Assembly (NCBI RefSeq): GCF_039542905.1
Contig: NZ_BAABIS010000001.1
Location: forward strand, 7,068,001 to 7,132,000
Direction of reading: 5' to 3'
DNA from: Kitasatospora terrestris
GTDB taxonomy: Bacteria > Actinomycetota > Actinomycetes > Streptomycetales > Streptomycetaceae
Length of the DNA: 64,000 bases
The notes under the pieces are model-generated. The model saw nothing but the letters and a program-made list of their open reading frames with translations, ran no database searches and had not been told where the DNA came from. A program made the translations under genes and the position numbers. Of the stretch, positions 29,923 through 34,511 are shown in pieces (within the stretch, counting starts at the first letter, position 1; every line of letters starts with the position of its first letter).

Positions 29923-30131
29923 GGTCCGAGCGTACGGGGGTGCGGCGGGGCCGGGCCGGCGCCCCGCCCAGTGATCCTCAAGTGCCTTTCCAGCAAAGGT
30001 TGTTCACGTAAAGATACGCCTGAGCTGCGGGGCAACCCGGTGTTTATCCCGTGTAAACGGCGGCGTCGCACTCTGGTCACATGCGAGGCGCCGACCGGCG
30101 CAGCGCACCGAACCAGAAGGGGGATTCCACC
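29923..30131. other. Regulatory region before the Cys-rich peptide gene
   Basis: This 209-bp gap contains an AT-richer island (about 29975-30060) that contrasts with its flanks and probably holds the promoter of the peptide gene. It includes GTTTA at 30042-30046 and TAAAC at 30054-30058, an inverted repeat with a 7-bp spacer. I could not fix a -35/-10 pair. Confidence 0.45.
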
Positions 30132-30239
30132 GTGAAGAAGGTCGTCACCGGCAAGAAGATCGTCGTCCGCAAGCCGGGCGCGGTGCGGCTGACCGCGCTG
30201 TGCACCAACTACGGCTACGGCAACTGCTGCTGCATCTGA
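30132..30239 (+). CDS. 35-aa Lys-rich peptide ending in CCCI, candidate RiPP-like precursor
   Basis: A GTG-started frame with AAGGGGG 9-10 nt upstream encodes a basic N-terminus (KKVVTGKKIVVRKPGAVRL) and a short C-terminus with Cys24, Asn-Tyr-Gly-Tyr-Gly-Asn, and Cys32-Cys33-Cys34 followed by the last Ile35. The split into a leader-like and a short Cys-rich part, the hairpin behind it and the M50 protease next to it resemble peptide-maturation loci. I do not recognise the family. It might also be a metal-binding or surface peptide. The coding call rests on start, ribosome site and context. Confidence 0.7.
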   Translation: MKKVVTGKKIVVRKPGAVRLTALCTNYGYGNCCCI

Positions 30240-30247
30240 CAGCGACC

Positions 30248-30290
30248 GTCCGGCGGACCGGGGGCGTGCAGTGCCCCCGGCCCGCCGGAC
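30248..30290 (+). terminator. Strong hairpin between the peptide and M50 genes (attenuator)
   Basis: An 18-bp stem with one A-C mismatch (30248-30265 and 30273-30290) and a 7-nt loop, 8 bp after the peptide stop and without a U-run. It could end most transcripts after the short gene or protect its 3' end, giving excess peptide over the downstream proteins. Confidence 0.7.
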
Positions 30291-30323
30291 GGGGCCGGAC
30301 CCGCCGAAGGACAGGGGCACCCG

Positions 30324-31697
30324 ATGGTGAACGACGCACCGCTCCGCTTCCACCGGCTGACCTACCTCGACCAGGGGGACGAGGTGGTGGTCGGCCGCAC
30401 CGACATCGACTCCTACGGGGCGTTCCCGCCCGACGGGGCCGCGCTGCTGCGCCGCCTGGAGACCGGCACCGACCCGCGGCAGGCGGCCGACTGGTACCGC
30501 GCCGAGTTCGGCGAGGAGGTCGACCTCGACGACTTCCTCGACACCCTGCGCGAACTCGACTTCCTGCTCGGCGAGGCGGAGGCGGAGGACCGGGACGCGG
30601 GTGGGGCCGCCTCCCGCGCGGTGCCGCTGCAGTGGCTCGGCCGGGCCCTGTTCTCCCGGCCCGCCTGGCTCGCGTACGTCGCGCTGCTCGCCGCCGCCGT
30701 CCTCGCCTGCGCGGACCGGCCGGTGCTGCTGCCGCGCCCGGGCAACCTGTTCTTCAGCCCGTACGCGCTGCTGGTCCAGCTGGTGGTGTTCGTCAGCCAG
30801 CCGGTGTTCATGCTGCTGCACGAGTACGGGCACGTCCTGGCGGGCCGCCGGCTGGGCCTGCGCACCACGCTGCGGATCAGCCGCCGCCTGTACTTCGTCA
30901 CCTTCGAGACCGCGCTGGACGGCCTGGTGGTGCTGCCCCGGCGCAGCCGCCTGCTGCCGGTGCTGGCCGGGATGCTGGTGGACGTCCTCGGCATGGCCGC
31001 GCTGACGCTGGCCGCCTGGGCGGGCTGCGGGCCGGACGGCACGCCGAGCACCGCCGGGCGGGTCTGTCTGGCGCTGGCGTTCACCGCGATCCCGCGGCTG
31101 CTGGCCCAGTTCTACTTCTTCCTGCGCACCGACCTGTACCACCTCGCGCTCGTCGTGCTCGGCGGCAGCGACCCGCACGGCACGGCCCGCGCGTACGTCG
31201 CCAACCGGCTGAACCGGTTGCGCGGCCGCGCCGACCTGCTGACCGACGAGAGCCGCTGGCACCCGAAGGACGCCGCCGCGGTGCGCTGGTACGCCCCGGC
31301 GTACCTGCTCGGGTACGCCGCGATGACGGTGATGCTGGCGACCGTGGTGCTGCCGGTCGGCTGGCGGTTCACCGCCTCCGCGCTGGCGACGGTCCGGGAC
31401 GGCTCGGTGCCGTTCACCCGGCTCGCGGACGCGGCGTTCGCCCTGGCGATGGTCGGGGTGCAGCTCCTCGCGGTGGCGTACGGCGCCTGGCGGGCCTGGC
31501 GGCGACGGAGCCGCGCCGCCCACGACACGAGCACGGACGCGACGACGAGCACAGACACGAGCACGGGCGCGACGACGAGCGCAGGCAGCACGAGCACGAC
31601 GAGCACAGGCACGAGCACGAGCACGACGAGCACAGGCAGCACGAGTACGAGTTCGACCGAGGCACACCAAGGGGGAGTCCATGTCCGGCCCGTCTGA
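30324..31697 (+). CDS. M50 (site-2-protease-like) membrane peptidase with PqqD/RRE-like N-terminus
   Basis: This 457-aa protein has an N-terminal ~85 residues that look like a PqqD-type RiPP recognition element (acidic, winged-helix-like). A polytopic membrane domain follows, with the zinc motif HEYGH (166-170) and a third-ligand candidate Asp220 (MLVDVLG). The last ~55 residues (from ~400) are a low-complexity Ser/Thr/Asp tail encoded by short repeats. YydH, a protease of this type, acts in the YydF peptide system, so processing or export of the adjacent peptide is plausible. The ATG has a purine-rich AAGGACAGGGG upstream. Confidence 0.82.
   Translation: MVNDAPLRFHRLTYLDQGDEVVVGRTDIDSYGAFPPDGAALLRRLETGTDPRQAADWYRAEFGEEVDLDDFLDTLRELDFLLGEAEAEDRDAGGAASRAVPLQWLGRALFSRPAWLAYVALLAAAVLACADRPVLLPRPGNLFFSPYALLVQLVVFVSQPVFMLLHEYGHVLAGRRLGLRTTLRISRRLYFVTFETALDGLVVLPRRSRLLPVLAGMLVDVLGMAALTLAAWAGCGPDGTPSTAGRVCLALAFTAIPRLLAQFYFFLRTDLYHLALVVLGGSDPHGTARAYVANRLNRLRGRADLLTDESRWHPKDAAAVRWYAPAYLLGYAAMTVMLATVVLPVGWRFTASALATVRDGSVPFTRLADAAFALAMVGVQLLAVAYGAWRAWRRRSRAAHDTSTDATTSTDTSTGATTSAGSTSTTSTGTSTSTTSTGSTSTSSTEAHQGGVHVRPV
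31517..31660 (+). repeat. Low-complexity repeats encoding the Ser/Thr tail of the M50 protein
   Basis: Degenerate short repeats of the type ACGAGCAC / GCACGACGAG run through ~140 bp in frame. Such DNA can change length by slippage, so tail length may vary between strains. Confidence 0.75.
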
Positions 31698-33867
31698 CCG
31701 TCCGCCGTCCGCCGCCGCGCGGCGCCCGCACCACTGGCTGATCGCGCCCGACGAGAGCGCCGCACGCGCGCTGGTCGCCGACGCGCTGGCCGAGCCGGGC
31801 GTGCCGCCGGTGCTCGCCGTGCTCGACGCGCACCGCCGGCTGCGCGGGCCGTTCACCGCCGCCGGGGCGCTGATGCGGCAGCTGGTACCCGGGGTGCTGG
31901 CCGCCGACCCGGAGCCGGCCGTCCGGCACGACATCGAGATCCTGGCCGCCGCACCGGAGTTGCGCACCGTCCTGCCGTGCCGCCGGGAGACCCTGACCTC
32001 GCTGACCGCCCCGCAGAAGCGCACCCGCTACTACCCGTACATCCGCACCACCCGGATCGCGCACGGGCTGATCGACTTCCTCACCGCGGTGCTGGACGCG
32101 CCCGCGACCCTGGTGGTGCGGCACGCCGAGCACGCCGACCGGACGGATGCCGACTGGCTGGCCCTGCTGCTGCGCCGCGCCGACCCGCAGCGCCTGCGGA
32201 TCGTGATCTGCACCGCGGGCCGGGACGTCCCGCAGCCGCTGGCCGACGCGCTGGCCGCGCACACCACGCCGCGCGAGGCGCCCGCCACGCCGCTCGGGCC
32301 GCTGCCCGACGACCCGGCCGCCCGCTGGGAGCTGGCCGCCGGCTGGGTCGCCGCCGACCGCAGCACCGACGACCCGGCGGCCGCCGCCTGCTACGCCGAG
32401 CTGGAGCCCGCCGAACGCGCCCGGCTGCACGAGGCCCGCGCCGAGGAGCTGGCGGCCGCCGCCCTGGCCGGCGAGGCGTCGCTGCTGCGCGGACCGCTCG
32501 CCCACCACCGCGCGCTGGGCACCGACCCGGCCGGCGCGGGCGCCCTCGCCCTTCAGGACGCCCTGCAGGAGTGCCTGCTGGAGGGCTTCTACGACGCCCT
32601 GGCCGAACTCGGCCCGCTCACCCACGCGGTGCTCGACTGGACGACCCGCCCCGAGGAGTGCTGGCTGGTCACGGCCCGGATGACCATCGCCTACAGCGTG
32701 ATGGGCGGCCGCGCCGACGAGGCCCTCGCGCTGTACGACGACGCCTGCGCGAGCACCGCGCTGCCCGCCGTCCACATGTCGGCGGCGTACGGCCGCGCCA
32801 TGGTCTACACCCGCTACCTGGAGCCCGAGCGGCGCGACCACCGCAAGGCGAAGGGGTGGGTCAACACCGCGGTCGCGCTCTCCCGCCTCGCCGACACCGA
32901 CGCCCGGCGCGCCTACAACCGGACCTTCAACGAGAACGGCCTGGCGCTGATCGAGATGCACCTCGGCGACCCGGCCCGCGCCCTCGAACTGGTCGAGGCC
33001 GGCATCGAGCGGATGGACGGCGCGCTGGACGCGGAGGACCAGGGCCAGCACCGCTCGGTCCTGGAGTACAACCGGGCCCAGCTGCTGGCCCGCCTGGTCG
33101 GCCCGGAGGCCGGCGCCGCCGCGTACGACCGGGTGATCGACCAGGACCCGCACCACAGCGAGTACTACTTCGAACGCGCGGTGCTGCTGCGCAAGTTGGG
33201 CCGCGACGAGGAGGCGCTGGCGGACTACGAGCACGCCATCCGGACCTCCCCGCCGTACCCCGAGGCGGTCTACAACCGGGCCGACCTGCGGCTCGAACTC
33301 GGCGACCTGGACGCAGCCCTGGCCGACTTGGACCGGGTGCTGGAGCTGGACCCGGAGTTCCTCGACGCGTACGTCAACCGGGCCGGGCTGCGCCACGCGC
33401 TCGGCGACGCCCGGGGCGCGGCCGAGGACATCGCCGCGGGCCTGGCGCGCGAGGCCGGGCAGCCGCACCTGCTGGCGCTGCGCGGCCTGCTCGCCCAGGA
33501 CGACGACCGTCCCGAGGAGGCCCGCGCGGACCTGGAGGCCGCGCTCGCCGGTGACCCCGACCTGCCCGCCGCCTGGGCCGCGCTCGGTGTGCTGGCGTAC
33601 GAGCGGGGCGAGGCCGAGGAGTCGGTGCGCTGCCTCGGCCGCTCGCTGCGGCTGGAGGACGACCCGGTGGTCCGCGCCAACCGGGCTCTGGCACACGAGA
33701 GTTGCGGCGACTGGGCGGCCGCCGCCGCGGACTACGCGGCTGCGATCGACCTGCTGCTGCCCGAGGTCGCGGCGGCGCAGGACGAGGCGGACTCGGCGGA
33801 GGTGGTGACGGAGCTGTCCCGGCTCCGCGGGCGTCGCGCCGAGTGCACGGCCCGCAGCGCGGGCTGA
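31681..33867 (+). CDS. TPR-repeat protein with degenerate ATPase-like N-terminal part
   Basis: This 728-aa protein overlaps the M50 gene by 17 nt and has AGGGGGAG before its ATG. The first ~210 residues recall a STAND/AAA-type region (hydrophobic strand followed by HAEHADRTDADWLALLLRR, like a Walker B zone), but no Walker A loop is visible. From about residue 330 the protein is a run of tetratricopeptide helix pairs (repeats with LGDLDAALADLDRVLELDPE and similar). It probably acts as a scaffold or receptor for the peptide or protease. Confidence 0.8.
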   Translation: MSGPSDRPPSAAARRPHHWLIAPDESAARALVADALAEPGVPPVLAVLDAHRRLRGPFTAAGALMRQLVPGVLAADPEPAVRHDIEILAAAPELRTVLPCRRETLTSLTAPQKRTRYYPYIRTTRIAHGLIDFLTAVLDAPATLVVRHAEHADRTDADWLALLLRRADPQRLRIVICTAGRDVPQPLADALAAHTTPREAPATPLGPLPDDPAARWELAAGWVAADRSTDDPAAAACYAELEPAERARLHEARAEELAAAALAGEASLLRGPLAHHRALGTDPAGAGALALQDALQECLLEGFYDALAELGPLTHAVLDWTTRPEECWLVTARMTIAYSVMGGRADEALALYDDACASTALPAVHMSAAYGRAMVYTRYLEPERRDHRKAKGWVNTAVALSRLADTDARRAYNRTFNENGLALIEMHLGDPARALELVEAGIERMDGALDAEDQGQHRSVLEYNRAQLLARLVGPEAGAAAYDRVIDQDPHHSEYYFERAVLLRKLGRDEEALADYEHAIRTSPPYPEAVYNRADLRLELGDLDAALADLDRVLELDPEFLDAYVNRAGLRHALGDARGAAEDIAAGLAREAGQPHLLALRGLLAQDDDRPEEARADLEAALAGDPDLPAAWAALGVLAYERGEAEESVRCLGRSLRLEDDPVVRANRALAHESCGDWAAAAADYAAAIDLLLPEVAAAQDEADSAEVVTELSRLRGRRAECTARSAG

Positions 33868-33962: not shown

Positions 33963-34511
33963 ATGGCCACCGTCCTCGCCCTCTCGGGCAGCCCGTCACC
34001 CGCCTCGCGGACCGCCCGGCTGGCCGAGCTGGCCGCCGCCGACCTGCGCGCCCGGGGACACCGGGTGCACAGCCTGGCGCTGCGCGAGCTGCCCGCCGAG
34101 CCGCTGCTGGCCGCGCGCACCGCGGACCCGTCGATCGCCCGCGCGGTGCGGCTGGTCGCCGAGGCGGACGCGCTGGTGGTCGCCACCCCGATCTACCAGG
34201 CCGCGTACTCGGGGCTGTTGAAGGTCTTCCTCGACCTGCTGCCGCGGCACGGGCTGGAGGGCAAGCCGGTGCTGCCGCTGGCCACCGGCGGGTCGGCGGC
34301 CCACGTGCTGGCGCTGGACTACGCGCTGCGGCCGGTGCTGACCGCGCTCGGCGCGCAGGTCGCGCCGGGCCGGTACGTGCTGGACCGCGAGCTGGGCACG
34401 GCGCCGGACGGTGCCGCGTTCCTCGCCGGGGACAGCGCCGCCGCGCTGGCCGGGACGGTCGCCCGGTTCGCGTCGGCGCTGGCCGGCACCGCGCAGCTCG
34501 CCGCCGCCTGA
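33963..34511 (+). CDS. NADPH-dependent FMN reductase (SsuE-like)
   Basis: The 182-aa flavodoxin-fold protein starts with LSGSPSPASRT (phosphate loop for FMN) and has TPIYQAAYSGLLKVFLDLLP and TGGSAAHVLALDYALRPVL, typical of SsuE/MsuE-type reductases. Such enzymes supply reduced flavin to two-component monooxygenases or reduce quinones. No sulfonate monooxygenase gene is adjacent, so its partner is unknown. GGAAGG precedes the ATG. Confidence 0.9.
   Translation: MATVLALSGSPSPASRTARLAELAAADLRARGHRVHSLALRELPAEPLLAARTADPSIARAVRLVAEADALVVATPIYQAAYSGLLKVFLDLLPRHGLEGKPVLPLATGGSAAHVLALDYALRPVLTALGAQVAPGRYVLDRELGTAPDGAAFLAGDSAAALAGTVARFASALAGTAQLAAA

Follow-up and report, generated by a model that had tools for sequence, protein, structure and literature searches.

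Short peptide, RRE-fused site-2 protease and TPR protein genes in the Kitasatospora group probably belong to an undescribed family of processed peptides

The daptide protein MpaP/DapP (PMC10036551) begins with an RRE and continues as an intramembrane site-2 protease, and it is encoded beside short precursor genes whose products have the leader motif ELExMEAP and an invariant C-terminal Thr. In the epipeptide system the M50 metalloprotease YydH/EpeP matures, and perhaps exports, a short peptide, and in the pearlin systems the membrane M50 proteins TglG and TmoG act on a RiPP scaffold peptide, with removal of the C-terminal amino acid (both PMC10885120). The locus described here, which lies in a window of 64,000 nucleotides (the whole stretch of DNA that was analysed), comprises the genes of a short peptide, an M50 protein and a TPR protein. 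Its M50 protein has the same RRE-site-2-protease fusion as MpaP/DapP (NF041824), lies beside a short peptide like YydH/EpeP (NF058609), and is, like TglG and TmoG, a membrane M50 that we propose to work with a RiPP-type peptide. The profile matches are however weak. Among NCBIfam models the two closest, daptide_HExxH (best 4.8e-5) and YydH/LiaK (best 0.0014), both describe metalloproteases of RiPP pathways, but each is matched by 3 of 34 M50 members, and neither by the window protein. The leader is unrelated to that of the daptides: ELExMEAP is absent here and no aligned precursor ends in Thr, and instead of daptide modification genes, which were not recognised among the neighbours looked at, there is a TPR protein. 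In contrast to the epipeptides, the trio has neither an epimerase radical SAM nor an ABC exporter, and its precursor is again unrelated. Nor was a PEARL (peptide aminoacyl-tRNA ligase), as in the pearlin systems, recognised here. We think it likely that the locus serves the biosynthesis of an undescribed RiPP family, in which leader, RRE-S2P and TPR protein are constant and the tailoring depends on the lineage. That it is a family of processed peptides is probable because the gene set recurs in many relatives, sometimes beside known peptide-modifying enzymes. No description of the trio was recognised in the open-licence PMC literature, and six leader strings were absent from open-licence PMC papers, where absence weighs little.

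The precursor peptide gene occupies 30132..30239 of the + strand, with a GTG start at 30132, a stop at 30237-30239 and a ribosome-binding site, AGAAGGGGG, at 30115..30123 (+), 8 nt before the start; Shine-Dalgarno-like stretches were listed for the peptide genes of the relatives as well. Its translation is the 35-aa peptide VKKVVTGKKIVVRKPGAVRLTALCTNYGYGNCCCI, which can be split into a leader of approximately residues 1-21, ending KKIVVRKPGAVRLT, and a core, ALCTNYGYGNCCCI. No NCBIfam or Pfam family was matched by the peptide. On sequence comparison we nevertheless regard the 35-mer as a real gene product, because in 58/58 counted loci, other families included, the M50 gene is closely preceded by a peptide frame whose leader is related. 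The 35-mer does stand just 5' of a strong hairpin, as a chance frame or a regulatory one (leader-peptide, attenuation) of the M50-TPR operon might, but its protein sequence is kept in all counted loci, in tandem copies (L045, L048, L049, L164 and L177) and with ribosome sites of its own, and this conservation refutes such a reading almost completely. Left out of the count were the trio of a plasmid, L166, which duplicates L004, the M50 genes of six distant loci, and four peptide frames that looked irregular, namely an L049 copy cut at the contig end, a degenerate L045 frame with Cys and Tyr, and two frame-shifted-looking copies in L045 and L164 without Cys or Tyr.

The family looks like one of RiPP precursors, short and with a conserved leader and a variable core: the basic leader, consensus MKKIxVRKxGxVRLTSxA, is near-constant and more conserved in the alignment than the core, of which the counted loci hold 53 distinct versions. 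Both Cys and Tyr are present in 53 of 54 distinct cores, the exception being the plasmid core, which has neither, and the first Tyr lies 7 residues past the leader Thr in 33/53. In 28 cores Cys makes up 12.5% of the residues, against 1.0% in neighbouring called proteins. A metal-binding or redox peptide (a short metallothionein-like or disulfide one) that is delivered to the membrane could be imagined from this, the more so as CCC or CCCC occurs in the window, L004, L039 and L105, and flavin reductases adjoin 14/58 loci, with SsuE or FMN_red adjoining three more. We find it very improbable, however, since 25 of the 53 cores have a single Cys, the spacing of Cys is scattered while that of Tyr is kept, and the plasmid core can do without Cys. 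A CCC-I/L ending was seen only in the clade of the window itself (window, L004, L039), so that the CCCI ending is no family-wide feature, in contrast to the nearly family-wide Tyr and Cys.

The window comes from a soil-dwelling member of the Kitasatospora group, and the family is present in 31/61 sampled genomes of its genus. When the whole genomes of 41 relatives were searched, the peptide profile matched 21, with a best E in each of <= 1.9e-10, and these same 21 also have a close M50 (E <= 1e-67) and the TPR N-domain. One further marginal match of the peptide profile (G011, E 0.005) lies within a 418-codon frame. Two per-genome tallies scored 15 and 6 candidates per genome and may be low. 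The peptide is thus kept wherever the M50-TPR pair was counted, in the loci as well as in the genomes, as the original prediction had demanded of relatives.

Between the peptide and M50 genes lies a strong hairpin at 30246..30292 (+), whose 20-bp stem contains a single mismatch and closes on a loop of 5 nt. For the complete gap of 84 nt the folding energy is -55.6 kcal/mol (z -2.86), and a hairpin is also found in the gaps of the two nearest relatives (L004, z -6.3; L039, z -5.1), in L039 with a paired change. When the gaps of 34 loci were folded, z was negative in all of them and <= -2 in 23, with some gaps including slight coding sequence, because the automatic choice of start truncated the peptide of L045 (second copy), L055 and L057, and because the M50 start was called late in L058. 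An RNA terminator was considered for the window hairpin and rejected, as a T run is lacking and a terminator search gave no match. Perhaps the hairpin sets the ratio of peptide to enzyme.

The M50 gene (30324..31697, +) encodes a protein of 457 aa that profile and fold matches present as an RRE-site-2-protease fusion. Its N-terminus was first described as PqqD/RRE-like from sequence, and it is mainly structure that bears this out. The RRE (PqqD-like) domain covers residues ~5-84 (30336..30575, +), and in VIA-align comparisons residues 69-148 of the AF2 model superpose on the lasso-peptide RREs TbiB1 and TfuB1 (5v1u, 6jx3), both solved with leaders and the best structural matches, with Z 9.5 and an rmsd of 2.2-2.3 over 78-79 residues, and the domain matches PqqD (5sxy) with Z 7.3. 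TbiB1 (0.065) and TfuB1 (0.77) were also the only PDB profile matches at E <= 1. The match by sequence is weaker, Pfam PqqD being found at E <= 0.05 in 10/34 members (best E 0.0011), with the window protein at E 0.033, under Pfam's cutoff. By its modelled fold the N-terminus is an RRE, and leader binding can be predicted from it. TbiB1 and TfuB1 are separate small proteins of lasso-peptide pathways; the window RRE shares their fold but is fused to the M50. In the AF2 model pLDDT is < 50 for the core and the linker, and no pairing partner of the leader strand can be discerned.

The protease part has, as site-2 proteases do, an HExxH in a membrane helix and a distant Asp ligand. The zinc motif HEYGH is found at residues 166-170 (30819..30833, +), and the third zinc ligand is probably Asp270 (31131-31133, +), judging by the invariance of T269-D270. 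H166, E167, H170, T269 and D270 are invariant in 34/34 M50 members, and HExxH is present in the M50 of 58/58 loci. Alignment to SpoIVFB and RseP gave a middling Z of 7.3-7.5 (VIA-align), Foldseek returned nothing at E <= 0.001 for the M50 model, and 3/34 members satisfy Pfam Peptidase_M50. In the M50 tree the rows group by core type across families. Recognition of the peptide by the RRE domain and its cleavage at the membrane are natural predictions from this architecture.

The TPR gene (31681..33867, +; 728 aa) overlaps the M50 gene by 17 nt, so that the whole layout first proposed, from the peptide with its own ribosome site and the hairpin to the HEYGH protease and the overlapping TPR gene, agrees with the coordinates. 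A TPR gene directly 3' of the M50 gene is found in 58/58 loci, two of them cut by the contig end. The AF2 model (pLDDT 93.8), VIA matches and hhalign together give a degenerate STAND/AAA-like part at residues ~1-200, followed by a TPR superhelix at ~282-728, which in the model is a peptide-binding-type fold. The N-domain aligned in hhalign to the AAA_16 part of five LuxR-type proteins at E 4e-4 and a probability of 35%, a kinship that this sequence match can only suggest, and it is probably a dead STAND-like ATPase.

The protease Eep trims pheromones in Firmicutes, and the window trio resembles the RRNPP systems (Rap, NprR) in that a protein with a TPR superhelix is encoded close to a peptide. 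Peptide signalling, with the M50 trimming an otherwise unmodified peptide that returns into the cell, where the TPR protein reads it in the manner of Rap or NprR, would fit the alignment of these receptors to the TPR model at Z 18-20 (VIA-align), the Asn residues 395, 419, 464, 532 and 667, invariant in 32/32 proteins, which in the model could clamp a peptide backbone, and the 52/58 loci with no LanM, HFCD or rSAM_ocin among the neighbours profiled. Unrelated TPR superhelices, LGN and OGT among them, align equally well or better, however, and Pfam and NCBIfam gave no HTH or DNA-binding family in the window TPR protein. RRNPP receptors have an HTH or, as Rap does, an all-helical N-terminal domain, whereas strands run through the pseudo-ATPase-like N-terminal part here (17-21, 44-49, 142-147, 172-178 and 195-199). 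The leader is moreover RiPP-like, better conserved than the core and accompanied by an RRE, and RiPP tailoring enzymes occur in six loci, which makes signalling by an unmodified peptide rather unlikely.

These six loci (L047, L056, L057, L060, L062 and L172) have LanM, HFCD or rSAM near the trio. LanM lies within seven genes in three of the 58, by profile in L047 and L056 and by BLAST in L172, each time with a LuxR regulator beside the trio; a LanM near L041 was not accepted as linked, as it is some nine genes away and beside its own LanA-like frame. Three of the 58 loci (L056, L172, L060) have a core that ends in Cys, and these three alone carry a gene for an HFCD-like flavoprotein. This protein matches Pfam Flavoprotein, with CoaBC models below cutoff as the best of NCBIfam and a weak match to CypD, and we take it to be HFCD partly from its presumed motifs. 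L056 and L172 are near-identical (LanM 91%, HFCD 97%), and therefore no more than two cases can be counted for HFCD (L056/L172 and L060), and two for LanM. L057 and L062 carry rSAM_ocin_1 and DUF5825, a B12 radical-SAM C-methyltransferase; it was the only radical SAM identified among the neighbours profiled, which held no YydG-type epimerase. It might be thought that the M50-TPR pair is the protease part of a split lanthipeptide pathway, in which LanM-like enzymes, mostly encoded elsewhere, modify the peptide in all cases, and on the LanM strand of L047, L056 and L172 a search within 2 kb gave no further small frame that is rich in Cys and has a ribosome site. With LanM within seven genes in only three of the 58 loci, two of them near-identical, and none beside the window precursor, we hold this to be doubtful.

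In the window itself, an SsuE-type NADPH-dependent FMN reductase gene (33963..34511, +; TIGR03567, 187.5 bits, above cutoff), a possible accessory, lies directly downstream of the TPR gene, as it does in L004 but not in L039. A tblastn search of the 64 kb with representatives of LanM, HFCD, rSAM, DUF5825 and ThiF, and of split-barrel flavin reductase, SARP, LuxR and XRE/ImmA/MAB, gave matches to the genes of the M50, TPR and SsuE proteins and to nothing else. The earlier statement that neighbouring genes encode neither a radical SAM or YcaO protein nor a lanthionine enzyme holds for the window as far as it was checked. The conclusion drawn from it, that any chemistry must be new, is unsupported, because relatives of the trio carry LanM, the HFCD-like flavoprotein or the RiPP radical-SAM C-methyltransferase.

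For the RiPP pathway that we favour, we suggest that the constant basic leader (KKIxVRKxGxVRLT) docks on the RRE at the M50 N-terminus, that the site-2 protease part, in the membrane or close to it, then removes the leader, and that the core is perhaps released outward by the M50. The TPR protein would be a non-ATP-hydrolysing scaffold, whose superhelix holds the precursor or the product. The core would be modified according to lineage by LanM and/or the HFCD cysteine decarboxylase, by the B12 radical-SAM C-methyltransferase, or by an enzyme encoded elsewhere, the FMN reductase being the only one directly at hand in the window. We also entertain, tentatively, a RiPP class in which the RRE-S2P and pseudo-STAND TPR set shared Tyr/Cys chemistry, such as a linkage at the C-terminus or through a side chain, with LanM, HFCD and radical SAM as add-ons of the lineages; the product could then be a peptide signal that its actinobacterial producer senses itself, with the TPR protein as reader. 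A compact peptide family that combines one constant leader with widely differing tailoring enzymes would offer peptide engineering a natural mix-and-match system. It would make the RRE-fused intramembrane protease the common denominator of the pathway, and it raises the question of what the obligate TPR partner does in the maturation or sensing of the peptide.

Some more distant M50 proteins (L063-L068, G055 and G085) were set aside, having no peptide match at E <= 0.01 and no TPR protein; in L063-L068 the M50 is accompanied by a ThiF-like partner. A Streptomyces plasmid carries the peptide-M50-TPR trio among transposase genes, with a diverged peptide (E 6.8e-4).

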